47,814 bases of DNA from Candidatus Poseidoniia archaeon (GTDB lineage: Archaea; Thermoplasmatota; Poseidoniia; MGIII; CG-Epi1): NCBI GenBank assembly GCA_022449785.1, contig JAKURQ010000006.1, forward strand, positions 1-47,814. The letters are read 5' to 3'. The notes beneath the pieces are model-generated. The model did not search any database and was not told the origin of the DNA. It was given only the letters and a program-made list of their open reading frames with translations. Made by a program: the position numbers and the translations under genes. This document shows positions 14,911 to 45,607 of the stretch, piece after piece (the stretch's first letter is position 1; each line of letters opens with the position of its first letter).

Positions 14911-15722
14911 TATTTTCTGACCTCTCCAAATTTTTCCAAGGAACTAGACAATGCATCTATGTCTTCTGATGTTGCAATAATAGATGTACCTAAGTGTGCA
15001 ACAGAAGAAACTGTTCCAAGTGGCATTCTATCAATTATCTCAGATATGTTGTCATTAATTAATCCTGATTTCTCAGTAAATAAACGGCCAACTTTAATTG
15101 CCGATCTTAAGTTTACATTGTTGAAATGTATCCCTAGAGCTGCTGAATTAATCAATTCAACCCATTTTTCATCAGATATAATCTCGGAAGTATCTCTCCC
15201 CAGACCTGATACACAAATTGCAAATTTTTCTTTTATTTGAACACAATCTACTTTGCCCTCATATCCAGGAGTATTGCGAATTACTATGGCTGGAAACATG
15301 GTCTGTCTAATTGATTCAGCTATAGCGACCACATCACCTAATCCTGTTCTAAATTCCACTTCAGCTTGATGAGCTGCTTTAACACACAAATCAATATCCT
15401 TTTCCAATTCCAAACAAGCTGCTAAAGCTGAAGCTCCTGATATACCAAAACCAGAACCTAAGGGTAAATCATGCCTTAGATAAATTGTCAAACTTTTGTC
15501 TTTAAAACCAAGTAAATCTATAGCTCTTAGAGTTACTGCATCATCAACCTCTTTATTCTCTCTTATAACTCTATTTTGTTTTACTTCTGATTGTTCCTTA
15601 ACAATTGCACAATGCACTCCTTGTGGTAAGACAATACCAATACCTGTAGAACCCATTTTCAATAAATCTTTATCTGGCCATATTGCAAAGGTTAGGCTGA
15701 CATGCCCTGGAGCAAAACTCAC
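14907..15722 (-). CDS. Pantoate kinase (archaeal CoA biosynthesis, GHMP family)
   Basis: The 271-residue GHMP-fold kinase phosphorylates pantoate to 4-phosphopantoate, the archaeal route to CoA. The start [11 protein letters not shown] and the ATP loop [15 protein letters not shown] (86-100) are those of the COG1829 pantoate kinases; GTGLGDVVA-like [17 protein letters not shown] is also typical. Length fits the family (about 270-300). The ATG overlaps the stop of the upstream glycosyltransferase by 4 nt, so the two are co-transcribed, although their functions have no obvious link. A partner phosphopantothenate synthetase is not in this window. Confidence 0.88.
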
Positions 15723-16834
15723 AGTATTTCCTCATAAAGTGAAATAGTCTTTTCGATAGTTACAGACCAAGTTCTTTCCTTCGAAGCATAAGTAAATGCT
15801 GAATCTGCTAATTCATTCAACAGTTTGTTATTGTCAATAATTCTAGAGATGGCATCGGGCATTTGGCCAGGTCTTACTAACAAAGCATGGCCTTGTGTAG
15901 CTTCTTCTACTGAAGGTAAAAGTGTAGCTACAACTGGAAGCTTGCACCCCATATATTCATAAATTTTAAGTGGTGAAAAACCATAATCAACGTTCGGATA
16001 AGGTGCCAAACCAATATCTGCCTCAATTAATAGTTGAGGAACTTCATCACGAGTAAGGCGACCTATGTGATACAAATTATCTACAACAGGTATATTTTCG
16101 CCATAACCGCCTCCTGCAACAACAACATTTATTGAAGGGTTTTTCTTAGCTATCTGTACTAATTCATCAATACCATGCCAAGGCCCTAATGCACCCACAA
16201 AGACCGCAATTTTTCCATTCAAACCTAACCTTTTTTTGATTCCCAAAGGTTCAGCACTCATATTGAATCTATCATCTTCATATCCATTCTGAATAACTGA
16301 AAACTGCTTTGCTTTTTTATTCCAAACAGAAATTTGATCCCTGAGTATAGAACTTACAGTAAAACCTCCATCGGCAAGTTCTATCTGTCTACGGCAAGAT
16401 CGAATAGCTTTCTCATGGTAAGGCCACAATCTAGCAATTCTAGTTGCTGATAACTCAGAGCGCATCCAATTATCATCTACCTGCAAGACTGATTTTACAC
16501 CCATTTCTGAGGCTGCTTGCACTCCTGAACCTGCAAAAATATATCCTCTGTCATGTACAATATCAAAACTTTCAGATTTTAATTCTTCCAAGACTTTCTG
16601 GTATGCGTGTCTAGTGAAAATTATCCTTTCAAATGGAATTCCGGGATTAACTATGGAAACAAACTTCAGATTAGGATGGAATTTTGTGCCTTTTGAAGCA
16701 TCTGCATTGTATCTACATAATAGAGTTACCTCAATTCCTGACTCTGCTAAACCATTAGCTAGAGCTAATTGATGAAGTGTCTGGCCTAATGTGTCGGGGA
16801 CCCTCACAGAGGGGGCTACCATCAAAACTTTCAC
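15719..16834 (-). CDS. GT4-family glycosyltransferase
   Basis: The 371-residue GT-B enzyme probably makes cell-surface glycans or N-glycans from nucleotide-sugar donors. The N-terminal Rossmann half starts VLMVAPSVRVPDTLGQTLHQ. The C-terminal donor-binding half has FVGALGPWHGIDELVQIA and the EX7E-type segment FSPLKIYEYMGCKLPVVAT. The start is GTG at 16834. It diverges from another GT4 gene 50 nt away, with one AT-rich element midway (16856-16863). Acceptor and sugar are unknown. Confidence 0.88.
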   Translation of the reverse strand: MKVLMVAPSVRVPDTLGQTLHQLALANGLAESGIEVTLLCRYNADASKGTKFHPNLKFVSIVNPGIPFERIIFTRHAYQKVLEELKSESFDIVHDRGYIFAGSGVQAASEMGVKSVLQVDDNWMRSELSATRIARLWPYHEKAIRSCRRQIELADGGFTVSSILRDQISVWNKKAKQFSVIQNGYEDDRFNMSAEPLGIKKRLGLNGKIAVFVGALGPWHGIDELVQIAKKNPSINVVVAGGGYGENIPVVDNLYHIGRLTRDEVPQLLIEADIGLAPYPNVDYGFSPLKIYEYMGCKLPVVATLLPSVEEATQGHALLVRPGQMPDAISRIIDNNKLLNELADSAFTYASKERTWSVTIEKTISLYEEIL

Positions 16835-16855
16835 AAAAACTCATTGATGAACAGG

Positions 16856-16863
16856 GTTTTAGA
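16856..16863. promoter_or_regulatory. Midpoint TATA-like element, bidirectional (GT4 pair)
   Basis: GTTTTAGA is centred at about 16859.5, 25 nt from the minus GTG (16834) and 25 nt from the plus GTG (16884). It is the weakest sequence match of the four midpoint elements but has the same geometry. Both transcripts would be leaderless. Confidence 0.4.
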
Positions 16864-16883
16864 ACTGTTCCTATAGGTGCATT

Positions 16884-17975
16884 GTGGCAAATATTGCAGT
16901 AATATGCGATCGCGAATTCTTTCAACCCTTTGACCAACGCGTCTATAAAGAAGTTTTAACACTCAAAAAAGCAGGCCATAATGTAGAAATTATCACGCCA
17001 CATAATACTACTAAAACTAAAGAGATTGAAGGCATCAAAGTACATTGTTTGACAAAAGAGGGAGTGCCTGGTTCTACAGCATACAGATTGATTAAAAAAG
17101 CGTTAGAAAATAATTATGATTTATACTATTGTCATGAATTAGATCCATTAATCTATAGTTTTTTCTTGAGATGGGCAACTAGGAAACCGATAATCTGGGA
17201 TTGCCATGAATACTTAGTCCCTATGAAAAAAGAATTGCAAGGTAACCTTGCAGCAGTCCTAACTGATATTGCAATCAGAATTGCTGCACCACGCGTAAAT
17301 CATATTGTAACAGTTGATAACTTACTTGGAAGACAACTTGTCTCTTTGAACAATACAACAGTGATACCAAATTATCCTACTCTCGCTGATTTTCCCGTGG
17401 CTGAAAGAATACCTGATAAAAAAATACCAAATTTACTCTATGTAGGTGGCTTAACAGAGGAAAGAGGACTCAAGGTCATGCTTAAAGCACTTAAAATTGT
17501 TAAATCTGAAATTGAAGTGAAGCTTACCCTCGTTGGAGGTTTTTATGACAAAGAATTAGAGAATTGGGCAAAGAATTATGATAAGAAAAATGATCTCGAT
17601 ATAGAATGGGTTGGATGGGTTAATTATAGAGATTTAGCACCTATCTTCTCAAGAGCAACTCTTGGCTTATGCCTTTTACAAGACCAAGCCCGTTATGATA
17701 GAGCAATAGCAACAAAGATTTTTGAATATTTGTTAATGGGAGTTCCAGTTCTAACTTCAAATGGATATTTGGTTGAAAAACTAATTCAAAAAGCCGAATG
17801 CGGTAATGCTGTTAATGCAACTAATATTTCAGAAGTAGCTGAAGGAATGATAACTTTACTTGGGAATAGTGATTTAGAAAAAATGGGTAAAAGAGGAGCT
17901 GATTTTTCTAGGGACAAATTTGTCTGGGAGAAAAGAGAAACTAATCTTTTAAAAATTATAGAGGAAATGATATAA
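16884..17975 (+). CDS. GT4-family glycosyltransferase
   Basis: The 363-residue GT-B enzyme starts with GTG at 16884 (MANIAVICDREFFQPFDQRVYKE). The acceptor half contains YYCHELDPLIYSF. The donor half has LLYVGGLTEERGLKVMLKAL and the EX7E-like AIATKIFEYLLMGVPVLTSN. It is divergent from a second GT4 gene, so the pair probably acts in one surface-polysaccharide or glycoprotein pathway. It is not a recent duplicate, since the two sequences differ throughout. Confidence 0.88.
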   Translation: MANIAVICDREFFQPFDQRVYKEVLTLKKAGHNVEIITPHNTTKTKEIEGIKVHCLTKEGVPGSTAYRLIKKALENNYDLYYCHELDPLIYSFFLRWATRKPIIWDCHEYLVPMKKELQGNLAAVLTDIAIRIAAPRVNHIVTVDNLLGRQLVSLNNTTVIPNYPTLADFPVAERIPDKKIPNLLYVGGLTEERGLKVMLKALKIVKSEIEVKLTLVGGFYDKELENWAKNYDKKNDLDIEWVGWVNYRDLAPIFSRATLGLCLLQDQARYDRAIATKIFEYLLMGVPVLTSNGYLVEKLIQKAECGNAVNATNISEVAEGMITLLGNSDLEKMGKRGADFSRDKFVWEKRETNLLKIIEEMI

Positions 17976-24811: not shown

Positions 24812-25348
24812 ATGACCGAAGATTTAGAAGAACCTAAATTCAAGGTTATACGAGAATATGAGGGTTTTGAAATCCGCAAGTATGCTGATACAATACAAGC
24901 ACAAGTTGCTTCAGCGTTAACTAAAGAAGTAAGTTCCAGTACTCATTTCAGAGAAATTGCAAGTTATATTTTTGGAAATAACCGTAAATCTCAAAACATA
25001 TCAATGACTGCTCCAGTTCACACTTGGAATAAGAATGATGAAACTCTAATGGCTTTTACAATGCCTTCTAAATTTAATATTGAAAAATTACCTAAACCAA
25101 ACAACGATAGAGTGAAATTACTGAAAATTGAAGGCGAATTTATAGCTGCATTAAAATTTTCTTGGTTTTCTGGAAAGAAGCGGGCTGAAAAACTAATACA
25201 AAAACTTCAAAAGTTGATTAAAACTGAAGGATTAAAACAAACTGGAATCCCTAAATTAGCAGTCTATGATAATCCAATGACAACTCTCCCATTTGCGAGG
25301 AGAAATGAAATACACATACCAATTGAATGGCCTATTAATCGTCAGTAG
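24812..25348 (+). CDS. SOUL family heme-binding protein
   Basis: The 178-residue protein matches the SOUL/HBP fold: FKVIREYEGFEIRKYADTIQA, IASYIFGNNRKSQNISMTAPV, and the end LPFARRNEIHIPIEW. Known members bind heme or porphyrin, but the function in archaea is not established. It overlaps the convergent LVIVD gene by 14 nt. Confidence 0.9.
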   Translation: MTEDLEEPKFKVIREYEGFEIRKYADTIQAQVASALTKEVSSSTHFREIASYIFGNNRKSQNISMTAPVHTWNKNDETLMAFTMPSKFNIEKLPKPNNDRVKLLKIEGEFIAALKFSWFSGKKRAEKLIQKLQKLIKTEGLKQTGIPKLAVYDNPMTTLPFARRNEIHIPIEWPINRQ

Positions 25349-27140
25349 AAGAACCTTCTTCCATATAGGGCATATCTATGTCTAACTGAGCGATATACAA
25401 ACCTGAAGTTATACAAGAAAGATAGGTATAGCCATCATGATATTCTGCAGCCCATAAGAAAGGAATCCAACCAAAATCGTAGAAATTAGAATCTAAAGGT
25501 TCACCATAGGCATTATTTTGAGGTAAAATATAAGCTACTGTTGATGATAAATGAGAAGCATTTCTATCCTCAGAATTTCCTGTTGCAATTATTGTTTCAA
25601 CATCAACAATCCATAATCCTGCATGGTAATGTGAAATGTATAATCTTCCATCCCATCCTCCACCATAACTTCGATCTGGCTTTTCTTCATCAGTAATAAA
25701 GTGACCTGAATCTAAATTATGTGGACTAAAGAGTAACCACTCATCACCATTCGCATGAGCTTCACATGAAGAACCAAAACAATGCAGTCCAGATGTAGGA
25801 ATTTCCCAATCTCCTACTAATTTAGGGAGGAAACGTAAATTTCCATTTACTACTTCATAATCTGTATTATCAATAACATAAATCATTCCTGTACCTACTG
25901 TAGTTGACAGAACCTCCACTGCTGCTGTGATTAAATGACGCTCACCTTCTAATTCAGGACGTATATGTGAGATATCAACCATTTCAGGATAAGGCTCCGT
26001 ATAATGTATGTAGGAGGAACGACCGCCATTTTCATTACCTGTCGAACCACTATCTGGTTGTCCATCACCATCAAAATCTGCAAAATCCATCCAATATCCT
26101 ACTTCAGGAGCACGCCACAGACAAGTCACTGGTGACCCAATTGTACTTTTACATCCTAAACCATAAAACAAATAATTTTCAGGGCTGTTGATTGGGTGAG
26201 GGACGTCCGTTACATCACCAATTCTTACGCCAGCCTCCCAATACGCTCCATACACATATGTCCTTCCATAACGAGGATCTTGCGGATCATTACCTGGCCA
26301 AGTTTGTACTGTCATATCATGAATGTAAATCCATCCACCTCTTGTTGTTTCCCAAGCAACTTCATATTCTCCAACTTTGATTACTGTATGGCCATATCCT
26401 GCACCAGGTACTCCTTCCAAAGTTCTAGCTACTGAACCTTGAAGATTCAAATGAGCTATAGTAACTCCTCCGCATGCTTCTCCAACAGCAATATCACAAC
26501 CTTCATAGTCTGGATTTGCAACGAAAATATACCATTCACCATCTATCATATGTGTGTACAAATTATGTGGTCCACTAGGATGATCTGAATCATACCAGCT
26601 ATCAACCCAAACTGGATTTGTTTTATCTGTAACATCAACTAAGACTACACTGACTTGTGTTGGATCGCCCCACTCACCAACTTGCGGATCTGCATAGCCA
26701 GGATCGACCAATTGGTTTTGTAAAATTACGTATTCTCTACCACTAAATTCAAGATATTTAATATCTAAAAGTTGGGTATTAGGATCAGTATATTTTCCCA
26801 TTACTGTTGTGTTGTAAGGATCGGTAACATCAGTTATATGAAATTCGGACCAGCCTGCCTGATAAGCATATGTTCTACCATCTGGAGAATCTGCAACTGT
26901 AACTTCTGCATTACCTCCATTTGTTAGTGGATTATATGATATTTGCTCAATATTGCCACTACTCATATTGTGCATTGATGCGTCCATATGATCATGACCC
27001 TCATCTTGTAGAAGTGGATCCTCAAGTACTATTGTGTCATTATCTGTGGATGTTTCATCATCTGATACTAAAAAATATGTAAGTGCACTGATTAGACTTA
27101 TACCAATCAAAGCTGCCAGTGCTATCTCTTTAGTCTGCAT
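25335..27140 (-). CDS. Membrane-anchored extracellular LVIVD-repeat beta-propeller protein
   Basis: The 601-residue protein has one N-terminal membrane segment (IALAALIGISLISALTYFLV). A His/Asp/Met-rich stretch follows (DEGHDHMDASMHNMSSGN), then an extracellular region made of beta-propeller-like repeats with signatures such as FHITDVTDPYNTTVMGKY, VVLVDVTDKTNPVWVDSW and GLWIVDVETI, which define LVIVD-type propellers. Cys pairs (GCDIAVGEACGG, HCFGSSCEA) suggest disulfides. No catalytic motif is recognised. The His/Met stretch could bind copper or another metal. It is divergent from a cupredoxin-like protein through one central TATA element, so the two may act together. Confidence 0.78.
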   Translation of the reverse strand: MQTKEIALAALIGISLISALTYFLVSDDETSTDNDTIVLEDPLLQDEGHDHMDASMHNMSSGNIEQISYNPLTNGGNAEVTVADSPDGRTYAYQAGWSEFHITDVTDPYNTTVMGKYTDPNTQLLDIKYLEFSGREYVILQNQLVDPGYADPQVGEWGDPTQVSVVLVDVTDKTNPVWVDSWYDSDHPSGPHNLYTHMIDGEWYIFVANPDYEGCDIAVGEACGGVTIAHLNLQGSVARTLEGVPGAGYGHTVIKVGEYEVAWETTRGGWIYIHDMTVQTWPGNDPQDPRYGRTYVYGAYWEAGVRIGDVTDVPHPINSPENYLFYGLGCKSTIGSPVTCLWRAPEVGYWMDFADFDGDGQPDSGSTGNENGGRSSYIHYTEPYPEMVDISHIRPELEGERHLITAAVEVLSTTVGTGMIYVIDNTDYEVVNGNLRFLPKLVGDWEIPTSGLHCFGSSCEAHANGDEWLLFSPHNLDSGHFITDEEKPDRSYGGGWDGRLYISHYHAGLWIVDVETIIATGNSEDRNASHLSSTVAYILPQNNAYGEPLDSNFYDFGWIPFLWAAEYHDGYTYLSCITSGLYIAQLDIDMPYMEEGSSTDD

Positions 27141-27159
27141 TAATTTAGTTAGTATAACC

Positions 27160-27172
27160 TTTTATTTATAGG
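27160..27172. promoter_or_regulatory. Midpoint TATA box, bidirectional (LVIVD / cupredoxin-like)
   Basis: TTTTATTTATAG is centred at 27166, exactly 26 nt from the minus ATG (27140) and 26 nt from the plus ATG (27192). It reads as a TATA box in both directions (TTTATTTATA and TATAAATAAAA), predicting two leaderless transcripts. Confidence 0.65.
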
Positions 27173-27191
27173 CTATTTGCAATACAAATAC

Positions 27192-27803
27192 ATGAAGGCG
27201 AAAGAAGTAGTACTAAGTGTAGCGATTGGACTGCTTTTCTGCTTTCAAATTATTTTCCCCGTAGCTACGGCACATACTGGAGGAATCTTTACAATAATTG
27301 TTTCAGAAAATGGCGTTGTTCCTGGAAATGTGCAAATGCTAGTAAATGATACGGCCCGTTGGATTAACGTAGATGACAGAGAAAATATAACTCATAGAAT
27401 TCTAGTAGACTCAGATTCGGATGGAATCTATGATGGAGAAAATGATTGGGATTCCGGAAACCTGACTGATTCTTGTGAGCATGTAAACGGAACAAAAGTA
27501 GATGAAAATTGTAACGCTTATTTTGATGTTATTTTTAATGAAACTGCTTTGAATATGAGTTATTATGACATTGTAGGGACGTATGCATTTGTCGATATTG
27601 TTTCTAATGGAGAAAAAGTCTATGGAAATGTAACTGTCAATCCCGATACACATCTTACAGCTGGCTTCCAAGAACCAATAAATGAAGAAAAAGATGATGA
27701 AGGTGAAGAAAGGCCTGCTTTCTTGCTAATAATTGCAGCTGTGTCTGGCATCGGTGCTGTAATACTTGGAGCTATGATTATCTTTGGTAGTAAAGACGAA
27801 TAA
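27192..27803 (+). CDS. Secreted cupredoxin-like protein lacking the usual copper ligands, membrane-anchored
   Basis: The 203-residue protein runs from ATG 27192 (the track's TTG 27177 is less likely given the TATA position). A signal peptide (VVLSVAIGLLFCFQIIFPVATA) precedes a plastocyanin-like domain: GGIFTIIVSENGVVPGNVQM, TARWINVDDRENITHRI, DWDSGNL, VGTYAFVDIV and YGNVTVN. Cupredoxins normally end with a CxxH...M loop before this last strand; here the loop reads FVDIVSNGEKVYG, without Cys, His or Met. One His (THRI) remains, plus an inserted Cys pair. A C-terminal TM (LLIIAAVSGIGAVILGAMIIF) anchors it. It may bind copper differently or be purely structural. Confidence 0.75.
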   Translation: MKAKEVVLSVAIGLLFCFQIIFPVATAHTGGIFTIIVSENGVVPGNVQMLVNDTARWINVDDRENITHRILVDSDSDGIYDGENDWDSGNLTDSCEHVNGTKVDENCNAYFDVIFNETALNMSYYDIVGTYAFVDIVSNGEKVYGNVTVNPDTHLTAGFQEPINEEKDDEGEERPAFLLIIAAVSGIGAVILGAMIIFGSKDE

Positions 27804-29818: not shown

Positions 29819-30467
29819 AACATTGATAGAAAGACTTCAGAAAAGATTAGCAGGAGAATTACCTGGAATTAAGTCATGGGAAAGAATGGCTGTAAAGTCC
29901 CAAAAAGGACAAAGTATTGAAAGTGAAAGCCTCCAGAAATACAGTGACTGGTTAACTAAAGAAAAATTGTCTGTAATGAAAAAGGCAGCTGTATTAATTG
30001 GATTATTCCAAAGGGATGGTGAATGGTATTTTCCATTAATAAAGAGGCCAATGCATGAAAAAAACCATCCAGGTCAAATTGCCCTTCCAGGAGGTGCAAT
30101 GGAACAAGATGAAACCCTTGAAACTACAGCTATAAGAGAAGCATTTGAAGAAGTTGGAATAACGCCTAATGATGTTGAAATAATAGGTGAAATGACACCT
30201 TTACCTGTTCCAGTTTCAAATTATGTAATATCTCCATTTGTAGGAATAATAAATAAAGAACCTAAATGGAAAATTAATAAGGATGAAGTTGAAGAACTTA
30301 TAATACTGAAATTAGACGATCTAATTAGTGCAGATAATGGCTATTCAGAAGATTGGAATCTAAGAGGTAACCAAGTTAAGGTACCAATTTTCAAATTAAT
30401 GGATAAAACAATATGGGGAGCTACAGCCACTGTATTGTGCGAATTGATTGACCTAATCAAAGAATGA
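29805..30467 (+). CDS. Nudix hydrolase, CoA pyrophosphatase (NudL)-like
   Basis: The 220-residue protein has the Nudix box GGAMEQDETLETTAIREAFEEVGI. The preceding RPMHEKNHPGQIALPGG and the helix before it resemble CoA/NADH diphosphatases of the COG0494 NudL group. A TTG start at 29805 overlaps pepD by 14 nt; the next in-frame candidate is TTG at 29823. It may hydrolyse oxidised CoA or nucleotide diphosphates. It ends in a 15-nt overlap with the convergent prepilin peptidase. Confidence 0.85.
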   Translation: MQQSETLIERLQKRLAGELPGIKSWERMAVKSQKGQSIESESLQKYSDWLTKEKLSVMKKAAVLIGLFQRDGEWYFPLIKRPMHEKNHPGQIALPGGAMEQDETLETTAIREAFEEVGITPNDVEIIGEMTPLPVPVSNYVISPFVGIINKEPKWKINKDEVEELIILKLDDLISADNGYSEDWNLRGNQVKVPIFKLMDKTIWGATATVLCELIDLIKE

Positions 30468-31370
30468 ATTAATTGGTTCTACAAGATAAGTTGAGAACAA
30501 ATCTCCAAAAAATGCAGTAGCAAAGAAAGCTAATGTTAATGGAATTATATACGGTATCTTGAATGATATCCAAGGTTCAGTAATCCCTTTTTCCTCTAAT
30601 TTATTCCATTGTGATTCTGAATCTACTTTCTGCTTAACAAAAGTAACTAAAATTGGTTTCTCCCCAACAATTTGTTGCATTGGCCAGACGAAACTTTCAC
30701 GTGCTTTGTCCAAAGGCATTTTAGTCCCAAAAAAAATCTGGAAATAGGGTTTTTCAATATTACCTTTAATTAAATTATAAACGGCCAAAGCAAGAGGAAT
30801 GGCCAAATAAAGTAAAAGTGAATTCATAAAAACAACAAAAGGATAAGGAAAACCACGGGTATCGAAAGCCATCATTGGATTATCACGTATTGAGAAAGTA
30901 AAAGGAACAACTAAGCCTATAGTCATTATTGCTTTTACATCAGCACCTCCTATTGTGGGTCCAAAATAGAACCAAACATACATCAGTATCATTAAAACAG
31001 AGATTGCTAAAACATCGAGTAATTTGTAGTTGTCATAAGAGACTTCTTCGGAATCAACCTTAATGAAAAAATATATTGCTGAAACTATTGCCAAAATTTG
31101 TGTAGCCTGCCAAACCATAACTTGATTGGCATCAAGAACATACTCATCAACGAATGCATTATAGAACAAGACAATTGTTGCAAAAATAAGAGCCCAAATA
31201 TGATAATCCCATTCTTCAGCAGACATTTCATAAATTAATAGTAAAGAAGCCAAACTCCCTGAAACAAGCCAAACTTGATTCGGGACACGACGAGTCATTA
31301 AATCTGTCCAGGACCCATAACAAAGCATTGAAGCTCCAAGAAAAAAACGAATCCAATCAAGTAATTCCAT
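30453..31370 (-). CDS. Prepilin/prearchaellin peptidase (A24, archaeal PibD/ArlK-like)
   Basis: The 305-residue polytopic membrane aspartyl protease removes class III signal peptides from archaeal pilins or archaellins. The two catalytic aspartates are visible: YGSWTDLMTRRVPN (first TM boundary) and GPTIGGADVKAIMTIG (GxGD-like motif, here GGAD). About six hydrophobic helices are seen. A cytoplasmic loop between helices near the C-terminus is longer than in PibD. The ATG is 25 nt from the midpoint TATA shared with the divergent 569-residue gene. Confidence 0.85.
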   Translation of the reverse strand: MELLDWIRFFLGASMLCYGSWTDLMTRRVPNQVWLVSGSLASLLLIYEMSAEEWDYHIWALIFATIVLFYNAFVDEYVLDANQVMVWQATQILAIVSAIYFFIKVDSEEVSYDNYKLLDVLAISVLMILMYVWFYFGPTIGGADVKAIMTIGLVVPFTFSIRDNPMMAFDTRGFPYPFVVFMNSLLLYLAIPLALAVYNLIKGNIEKPYFQIFFGTKMPLDKARESFVWPMQQIVGEKPILVTFVKQKVDSESQWNKLEEKGITEPWISFKIPYIIPLTLAFFATAFFGDLFSTYLVEPINSFFD

Positions 31371-31389: not shown

Positions 31390-31400
31390 CTATTAATTTG
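31390..31400. promoter_or_regulatory. Midpoint TATA-like element, bidirectional (prepilin peptidase / unknown)
   Basis: CTATTAATTT is centred at 31395, 25 nt from the minus ATG (31370) and 26 nt from the plus TTG (31421). It is nearly palindromic (ATTAAT), so it can serve both strands. Confidence 0.55.
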
Positions 31401-31420: not shown

Positions 31421-33130
31421 TTGAAAAAGTTAATTATAGATGCATGTTCACCTAAAACAGTGGATATAACAGAACAATTCCTGCCAAGTGAGAAATTTCT
31501 CAAAAAATATGACGATGTTACGGTCGATAGGAAATCCGGATTCTCTATTGTTGTAACCAATTTACGTATATTCATAGCAAACCAGTCTGAATTATGGGAC
31601 ATACAGACTGACAAAATAGACTATCTGGGAAGGACATTCATTCCTAGGTTTTCGTGGTGGTGGCAGCTTCTTTTCATACCTTTAGCAATGATTAGCGTTT
31701 CTAATCCTCTGTTTTTTGGGTTATTTCTACTTTTATCTGTTGCTAGACAATTTGTTAGAATTGAAGCTTTGATTATTGGAATTTATTCAAAGGAATGGAA
31801 GATAAGCAAAGATAATACAACACTTGATCAAATAGTCGAAAATATACGTGCAAATTCAATTGTGGGATTAAAGAGAAGTGATGGTAAACAAATCTTGGAT
31901 GCAGATTCAGTTGATGAGGAAATTACAGGGTTGGAATTAGATTTAGTTGGTGAAAATGAATCTAGAGTATTAAAAATGGCATGGACTTTTGCAATTTTGT
32001 CATTCTTTTCATATTACATGGGTTCTTTTCGTATAGGTACTGGATTTTGGACGTTTCTTTTTGCTGCCACATCTTTCGGATTTTTCGTATTACATCGTGA
32101 TAAAAGAAAAACCAACGAATTCAGAAATGTTAAAGCAAAAAATGGATGGACTTTGCAAGCCTGGATAGCTATTCTTAATTTCATGAAAATCCAATTCATA
32201 GAGGCTAAATGGTCTTTCAAAGTATTTGACACTGTAATTGATGTAAAAAAATTAGGTTATCAATTATGTTGTGTCTGCCTTTTCTTAGGATTATTATTTA
32301 CACATACTCAGGCCAGTATGATTCCATTGCTTCAAAGCATCTGTATTGGTATTCCTCTTTATCTTACTGGAAAAGTCTTAGCAGGAATTCCAAGAGAAAA
32401 ATGGCGAATGGCCCTACGAACAACAGGGGCTGCATTCATTGCATTAATTATTGTATGGCCTTGTTTAGCACTAATACCATTGTACGAAACCTCATCAGTT
32501 ATGATTCCAAAAGAACACATCCAGGGCGATTCTGGTAATGGCTGGAAAAGTGTAATGAATGAATATGATGAATATGGATTAGGATTAGCCTCAAGCTCCT
32601 TTGTTCTTTATGCAGATGATGGCATGGATGAAGAGGAAAATCAGGATGGCTATCCTGCATTATTGTTTGTAGTAGCAATAAAAGTTCCATTTAATCTTGA
32701 AGAAGAAAATATGTTAAGTGTATTGGACGAACAATTTAAAGAAATGGCAATCGATCAAGAAATTGATTTAGATACTCAAATAGAACAAGGAAGTCGGGTT
32801 ACGACTCAGGGTTATAGTACTCAATACTCAATTTATAATGGAACTGCAAAAACGGAAGAATTTGGATTTGGGGACTTTACTAGAAGTGTAACTAAGGGCT
32901 CTGAGAGTAGATATATTGGAGAAGTTTGGAAAGCTCCAGAACACAATCTAATTGTTGTGGCAATGGGTATAGCAATAATTTCTGAAGAAGAAATTAATGA
33001 TCAAACAGGAATAGAACCTATTGATGACATTATAGATATTATACCAAATAACCCTAATGATACTATTGACACACAGAATTGGGAAGAATTACAGAATCTT
33101 ATACTCGAAACTATGTGCTATAATAGTTAG
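31421..33130 (+). CDS. Polytopic membrane protein with N-terminal PH-like domain and extracytoplasmic C-terminal domain, unknown function
   Basis: The 569-residue protein starts with TTG at 31421, the start predicted by the midpoint TATA. Residues about 20-75 (SGFSIVVTNLRIFIANQSELW) resemble a bacterial PH-like domain of membrane proteins. Two hydrophobic helices follow (about 82-112). A second PH-like strand set comes next, then about four helices (about 190-235 and 285-355), and a soluble acidic domain from about residue 365 to the end, probably outside the membrane. No enzymatic motif is seen. The order PH, TM pair, soluble, TMs, exodomain is unlike families I can name. Confidence 0.6.
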   Translation: MKKLIIDACSPKTVDITEQFLPSEKFLKKYDDVTVDRKSGFSIVVTNLRIFIANQSELWDIQTDKIDYLGRTFIPRFSWWWQLLFIPLAMISVSNPLFFGLFLLLSVARQFVRIEALIIGIYSKEWKISKDNTTLDQIVENIRANSIVGLKRSDGKQILDADSVDEEITGLELDLVGENESRVLKMAWTFAILSFFSYYMGSFRIGTGFWTFLFAATSFGFFVLHRDKRKTNEFRNVKAKNGWTLQAWIAILNFMKIQFIEAKWSFKVFDTVIDVKKLGYQLCCVCLFLGLLFTHTQASMIPLLQSICIGIPLYLTGKVLAGIPREKWRMALRTTGAAFIALIIVWPCLALIPLYETSSVMIPKEHIQGDSGNGWKSVMNEYDEYGLGLASSSFVLYADDGMDEEENQDGYPALLFVVAIKVPFNLEEENMLSVLDEQFKEMAIDQEIDLDTQIEQGSRVTTQGYSTQYSIYNGTAKTEEFGFGDFTRSVTKGSESRYIGEVWKAPEHNLIVVAMGIAIISEEEINDQTGIEPIDDIIDIIPNNPNDTIDTQNWEELQNLILETMCYNS

Positions 33131-44720: not shown

Positions 44721-44730
44721 CATATAAATA
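44721..44730. promoter_or_regulatory. Midpoint TATA box, bidirectional (beta-helix protein / 284-residue protein)
   Basis: CATATAAATA is centred at 44726, 25 nt from the minus ATG (44701) and 27 nt from the plus GTG (44753). It reads TATAAATA and TATTTATATG on the two strands, a good TATA both ways. Confidence 0.62.
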
Positions 44731-44752: not shown

Positions 44753-45607
44753 GTGATATTAGTTTTAAAGGGAGCTTTATTTGACATAGTAATGAAGCGC
44801 ATTTTAGGAATAATTCTGACGTTTGTTTTGCTTTCACAGCCATTAGTAAGTAGTGAAACTGATAATTACGTGAGTCATCCAGGAAACATACCTGATTTTC
44901 ATAATTTTGCTACTCCTCAATTAGAACCTGGTGAAAGTGGAGATTTTGCTTTAGATATTTACAATAGATATGGATATTCTCTAGACAATGTAACCATCAT
45001 GGCTGAAATATACCATAGAGCAGACATAGATGAATCTGAAGCTTTAGACAATATTCAATCTGCTGAAAGGCCATACATTAACAAAAAATGTTGGAAATCA
45101 TTACCTGAAGGGGATAAAAACTGTGGAGATAATGAAGGAGAATTAGTTGAATATAGCATAGGAACTATTGAAACCAATACTACAATATTTCTTGAGTTTA
45201 ATATTGTCACTAAAGAAAATACCAAAGAAGGAACCTATTTTGTTAGATTCTCTATGGATTTTGAATATAACGGAACTGCCAGAAGCATGCAGTCCAGAGG
45301 TCACTGGAACATGGAATTGTGGGAAGAAGCCACTACGAATGTGACTGAAGGATCACCTGGCAATATCAATTTAGAAGTTCTAGGAGTAGATGGAATTATC
45401 CCGGATTCTTCTTTTGGAGTCAAAAAGCCAATACCAAAATGGCCATTGTATGCTCTTATTACATTAACAATTGTATTTGCAGGGCTTTCTGTTATATTTT
45501 ATCTTGAAGAAGAAGGGAACTATCCTGAATTAAATAAATGGCTTCAGAAGCAAAGGGGCAAACTTAATGAGCTTAGGTTGCGCTTTAAGTACAGAAAAGG
45601 CAGCTAA
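44753..45607 (+). CDS. Secreted membrane-anchored protein with one Ig/NEW3-like domain, unknown
   Basis: The 284-residue protein has a signal peptide (MKRILGIILTFVLLSQPLVSS) and an extracellular beta domain with FATPQLEPGESGDFALDIYN and TIFLEFNIVTKENTKEGTYF, a pattern of NPCBM/NEW3-like or COG1470-type domains of archaeal surface proteins. A TM (PLYALITLTIVFAGLSVIFYL) and a basic tail (RLRFKYRKG) follow. The start is either GTG 44753, favoured by the midpoint TATA, or ATG 44792, favoured by the compact signal peptide. The last 78 nt overlap the convergent geranylgeranyl reductase. Confidence 0.72.
   Translation: MILVLKGALFDIVMKRILGIILTFVLLSQPLVSSETDNYVSHPGNIPDFHNFATPQLEPGESGDFALDIYNRYGYSLDNVTIMAEIYHRADIDESEALDNIQSAERPYINKKCWKSLPEGDKNCGDNEGELVEYSIGTIETNTTIFLEFNIVTKENTKEGTYFVRFSMDFEYNGTARSMQSRGHWNMELWEEATTNVTEGSPGNINLEVLGVDGIIPDSSFGVKKPIPKWPLYALITLTIVFAGLSVIFYLEEEGNYPELNKWLQKQRGKLNELRLRFKYRKGS

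Follow-up and report, generated by a model that had tools for sequence, protein, structure and literature searches.

Can a single TATA element lying midway between two divergent start codons serve both genes? The question is raised by positions 27,141 to 27,191 of the 47,814-nt stretch analysed here (the window), which is contig C56 in the 1.04 Mb genome (86% complete) of a Marine Group III (MGIII) euryarchaeote. An earlier note had proposed that four divergent pairs in the window, 16834/16884, 27140/27192, 31370/31421 and 44701/44753, are each built around one AT-rich element near the midpoint, with start codons 50, 52, 51 and 52 nt apart, respectively. For the analysis we collected ~0.96 Mb of the same genome (G000), alongside samples of G001, G014 and G021; G014 is a 65% GC member of the same family and the source of locus L153. 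Genes in G000 were called with our own small codon-pair caller, in which promoter information was unused, giving 905 genes and 121 divergent pairs.

Promoter boxes and leaderless-type starts

In leaderless genes the transcription start site (TSS) is the start codon, and hence the promoter box lies at a fixed distance from it. An EM motif search with first-of-operon genes of G000 recovered TTWWAW at −28 to −23 from the start codon in 67% of 338 upstream regions. This box is the dominant upstream signal of such genes, and the three columns upstream of it carry little information. Among divergent genes with gaps >60 nt, the starts of TATA-like hexamers peak at −30 to −26, and Shine–Dalgarno-like words were found in 24% of these genes compared with 56% of tightly packed tandem genes. 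The genome therefore has what is expected of leaderless genes, a box ~25–28 nt before the start codon and no requirement for a Shine–Dalgarno sequence, and leaderless TSSs are predicted from the position of the box. The motif and its position were the same in G014.

Since the box is centred at −25.5, one box can be used by two leaderless genes only if their start codons are 51 nt apart; given the box position and correct starts, sharing follows from geometry. The proposal of a single box ~25 nt from both starts, with a spacing of 50–52 nt, was right in this respect, as the position of the box at −28 to −23 predicts 51 nt and conserved pairs of this kind exist. A different box is seen in the first 400 kb of G021 (MGIIa-type, loci L112–L131), where TT[CG]A[AT], typically CTTTCAAG and not TATA, is located at −30/−29, ~28 nt before starts, and TTTAT is nearly missing. 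In the divergent pairs of G021 whose starts are 53 or 54 nt apart, a single TTCAA box likewise lies at the centre.

Divergent pairs in the window

The pair that frames the region in question consists of P0001 (25335..27140, minus strand), a 601-aa secreted or anchored protein with a leaderless-type ATG at 27140 that is kept in 7 MGIII loci, and P0002 (27192..27803, plus strand), a 203-aa protein with a leaderless-type ATG at 27192 and, by inspection, a signal peptide and a C-terminal membrane anchor. P0001 is conserved in MGIII and MGII, being 94% identical to its counterpart in the Marine Group III euryarchaeote CG-Epi1 (L251), 89–95% in other MGIII loci and 63–70% in MGII (Poseidoniales) orthologues. 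Neither P0001 nor P0002 has a family match in Pfam, NCBIfam or PDB sequences, though the divergent pair (25335–27803) is retained across MGIII and MGII. The putative shared TATA element, TTTTATTTATA (27160..27170), occupies −32 to −22 from the plus start and −30 to −20 from the minus start, and scores 4.83/4.81 bits on the two strands with the genome's own TATA model. This 11-bp A/T core is invariant in 8 MGIII sequences, with more diverged flanks, and in 7 of 7 MGIII relatives the orthologous genes begin with ATG/ATG at a spacing of 51–53 nt.

The orthologous pair in MGII (24 loci) also encloses a conserved core, of 12–14 bp and mostly GTTTKGWCTTTAT, which is located 23–25 nt from the minus ATG and 22–25 nt from the plus ATG (28 nt in one locus), the plus start being assigned solely by taking the first ATG in frame beyond the core. 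Identity across these loci is 93% in the core compared with 35–42% in the flanks, and the start codons are 57–65 nt apart, with 13 of the 24 pairs at 58 nt. Three further MGII loci, L047–L049, lack the core. The MGII core may consist of two boxes side by side and not of a single shared one, in which case the midpoint would be retained while its content differs.

Both genes of the 16834/16884 pair encode glycosyltransferases. The minus gene (15719..16834) starts at GTG 16834, with ATG 16822 as an alternative that is also conserved, and the plus gene (16884..17975) starts at GTG 16884, which is conserved in L251 and L153. Between them lies the putative shared box GGTTTTAGAA (16855..16864), the core of which is conserved as GGTTTTAGAACT in L251 and L175 and as GCTTTTAGG in L153. 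The spacing is 47 nt in L251 and 50 nt in L153, where, in a genome of 65% GC, CTTTTAG is the sole AT-rich patch between the orthologues. With scores of 3.58/4.64 bits, the box, like that of 27140/27192, fits the TATA model of the genome on either strand when placed at promoter distance. The box model favours 16834 as the minus start (4.64 bits compared with 0.55 for ATG 16822); use of ATG 16822 would give a spacing of 59–62 nt and a short leader, which counts against the shared leaderless reading. The pair arrangement has broken up in L175, where 742 nt separate the plus glycosyltransferase from the minus gene. The box and the minus start are retained there, and the box thus serves a minus gene whose plus partner is displaced.

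Comparison with relatives gave a different outcome for the remaining two pairs. The box TATTAATTT (31391..31399) is assigned only to the minus gene at 30453..31370 (type IV leader peptidase family), with no sharing with a start at 31421. TTG 31421 was rejected as a start because 7 of 10 relatives have an in-frame stop between this region and the conserved GTG (31460), and in the remaining 3 no start codon occurs at that place. The true spacing, 31370/31460, is 90 nt. A candidate box of the plus gene's own, TTAATTATA (31430..31438), is located −30 to −22 from GTG 31460 and has a weak PWM score in the window; in several relatives a TTTTATATA box occupies the same place before the conserved GTG. 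As the box model in the window is undecided (1.9 bits for 31421 compared with 1.0 for 31460), the verdict against TTG 31421 rests on the relatives.

Similarly, ATATAAAT (44722..44729) is assigned only to the minus gene that starts at ATG 44701, and GTG 44753 was rejected as the plus start because its reading frame is disrupted in L259 and L260 and runs into a stop in L261. The conserved start is ATG 44792, from which the protein begins MKRILGIILTF..., resembling a signal peptide, and the spacing becomes 91 nt. The box of the plus gene, TTTTAAAG (44763..44770), is ~28 nt upstream of this ATG and scores 6.8 bits with the PWM compared with 3.9 for 44753. Judged by this comparison, the 31370 and 44701 pairs are ~90 nt apart, with two predicted boxes each. 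Since the start codons at 31421 and 44753 are unsupported, two of the four reported pairs are real: 27140/27192 and 16834/16884 are upheld by relatives, while the spacings and near-midpoint elements of 31370/31421 and 44701/44753 hold only if the named codons are taken as starts. The idea that geometry decides between non-ATG starts led to two wrong choices, TTG 31421 and GTG 44753, and with two wrong starts in four pairs the 50–52 nt rule is unfit to be used alone for choosing start codons.

Divergent spacing and box symmetry

When starts were called without reference to promoters, the interval of 49–53 nt held 7 divergent pairs in G000 compared with 3.1 expected from the smoothed distribution (p = 0.03). 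With the discovery window excluded, 5 pairs remained at 49–53 nt compared with 2.6 expected (p = 0.12), no significant excess; nor was there one at 47–55 nt, with 7 pairs compared with 4.7 expected (p = 0.18). The sharp genome-wide peak at 50–52 nt that had been predicted was not found, there being no significant spike outside the window. The main mode of the divergent start-to-start distance in G000 is at 74–82 nt, with 19 pairs compared with 9–11 expected (p = 0.002–0.011), perhaps reflecting a tight back-to-back packing of two core promoters. Six divergent pairs of G000 are exactly 79 nt apart. A box-aware start caller was also tried as a measure of the peak and raised the G000 count at 47–55 nt from 9 to 15, yet it chose the refuted TTG 31421; it was rejected for this use because it is circular.

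Outside the window, the box-aware caller put forward two further shared-box pairs, each of them borne out by a single orthologue: C4:13710/13760, at 50 nt (50 in orthologue L149), and C9:6396/6445, at 49 nt (48 in orthologue L148). In G014, divergent genes spaced 48 or 51 nt apart have one AT patch between them, near the midpoint, while those spaced 69 or 70 nt apart have two.

The symmetry of the box was assessed by reading ordinary boxes backwards, with a virtual start placed 51 nt upstream, and comparing this reverse score with that of a control position. The median was 2.48 compared with 1.05 for the control in G000 (p = 1.5e-5), and 4.35 compared with −4.40 in G014 (p = 1e-11). Ordinary boxes thus also score well in reverse, and boxes in general are near-symmetric. 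The six shared pairs that were scored reach at least the 70th percentile of this ordinary-box baseline on both strands, and near-symmetry is thus slightly stronger in shared pairs in this small sample (n = 6). A seventh entry, G014 C2, was left out because its coordinates were wrong.

A probable shared core promoter and its alternatives

It seems probable that each of 27140/27192 and 16834/16884 has a bidirectional archaeal core promoter, in which one shared box would give two leaderless mRNAs, and that the 31370 and 44701 pairs belong to a two-box class. In the proposed mechanism, one near-palindromic TATA element would bind TBP, and TFB would join on either side of it. RNA polymerase would then initiate ~25 nt to one side or the other, on or beside the start codon there, so that two leaderless mRNAs would result, one each way. 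The shared box would presumably hold one complex at a time, and the TSS positions and binding in both orientations are likewise presumed. Wider-spaced divergent pairs would have one box per gene. What has been demonstrated for the bidirectional reading, at the level of sequence, is the position of the box, the spacing and its conservation, and the near-symmetry of the box.

Each gene could instead have its own TATA, the two one-way boxes overlapping or merely touching. In MGII, where the spacing is 57–65 nt, the core GTTTKGWCTTTAT is readable in this way, as a pair of adjoining hexamers, each of them −28 to −23 from its own start; the 11 bp of A/T in the MGIII core leave room for two offset registers, and a G014 pair at 54 nt has CTTAAC followed by CTTATC. 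However, the A/T stretch at 16834/16884 and in the G014 pairs with spacings of 48 and 51 nt is just ~5–7 bp, too short for two boxes, and we regard separate touching boxes as rather unlikely. It is also conceivable that the midpoint element drives one gene only, or is a regulator's operator, with the other gene using another signal. The 16834 box that is kept in L175 without its plus partner would fit this, as would the conserved block at 27140 (GTATAACC...GCCTATTT), which is longer than a TATA box. Such a role appears improbable, given that in MGIII, and in MGII despite its different core, the element keeps its distance from both starts while the flanks diverge, and that no second conserved block was found between the P0001 and P0002 genes.

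Coincidence in a compact genome has to be weighed too, since ~7% of divergent pairs fall at 47–55 nt anyway and the choice of starts sharpens the pattern. Two of the four pairs were indeed start-choice artefacts, and the genome-wide excess is weak. Nevertheless, chance is an unlikely source of a spacing and core conserved at 27140/27192 in 7 MGIII and 24 MGII loci, and two further pairs were confirmed by orthologues; we consider this explanation very improbable.

The proposed shared box has counterparts elsewhere. Warman et al. 2021 (Nat Microbiol 6:746) reportedly described bidirectional promoters that arise by DNA-sequence symmetry in bacteria and archaea, with a symmetric core element and a preferred TSS spacing; the pairs described here are alike in having such an element, with divergent transcription predicted. 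In Escherichia coli the spacing is set by the −10 element, 18 bp being commonest (PMC12825309). Bidirectional BRE-TATA-BRE promoters of Pyrococcus furiosus have one TATA midway between opposite TSSs ~50 bp apart, and those of PF1918 lie 49 bp apart in vitro, which was credited to symmetric TBP binding (PMC6640164). In P. furiosus, head-to-tail genes were the source of the motif, and the second RNA, being antisense, is presumed to have no function (PMC6640164). The element is centred in 27140/27192, 16834/16884 and their MGIII orthologues, here between start codons, 47–53 nt apart, rather than TSSs. In contrast to P. furiosus, both products are proposed to be leaderless mRNAs, so that the spacing is visible between start codons. 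The fixed distance from box to start codon resembles that of leaderless transcription in haloarchaea such as Haloferax volcanii, a different lineage. A search by terms of a study on H. volcanii turned up nothing on divergent, bidirectional or head-to-head promoters (PMC4983044). The literature searches yielded nothing more on divergent leaderless genes with a shared promoter, whether in archaea or in Poseidoniales. The sharing of one TATA element by TSSs ~50 bp apart is therefore already published (P. furiosus, PMC6640164), and what is new here is the lineage, the start-codon readout and the class-wide conservation at one gene pair.

Because the genes are predicted to be leaderless, promoter geometry shows in the start-codon spacing, so that bidirectional promoters of uncultured archaea can be read from sequence alone. 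The conserved 27140/27192 pair forms a natural series for how one promoter balances two genes. We suggest, tentatively and with some doubt, that this pair has a two-way leaderless promoter kept across the class Poseidoniia, the centre of which may have stayed fixed midway while the box changed form, being a core of two adjoining hexamers in MGII (mostly 58 nt) and a single shared TATA in MGIII (51–53 nt). If this is true, selection holds the P0001 and P0002 genes under one mutually exclusive initiation site.
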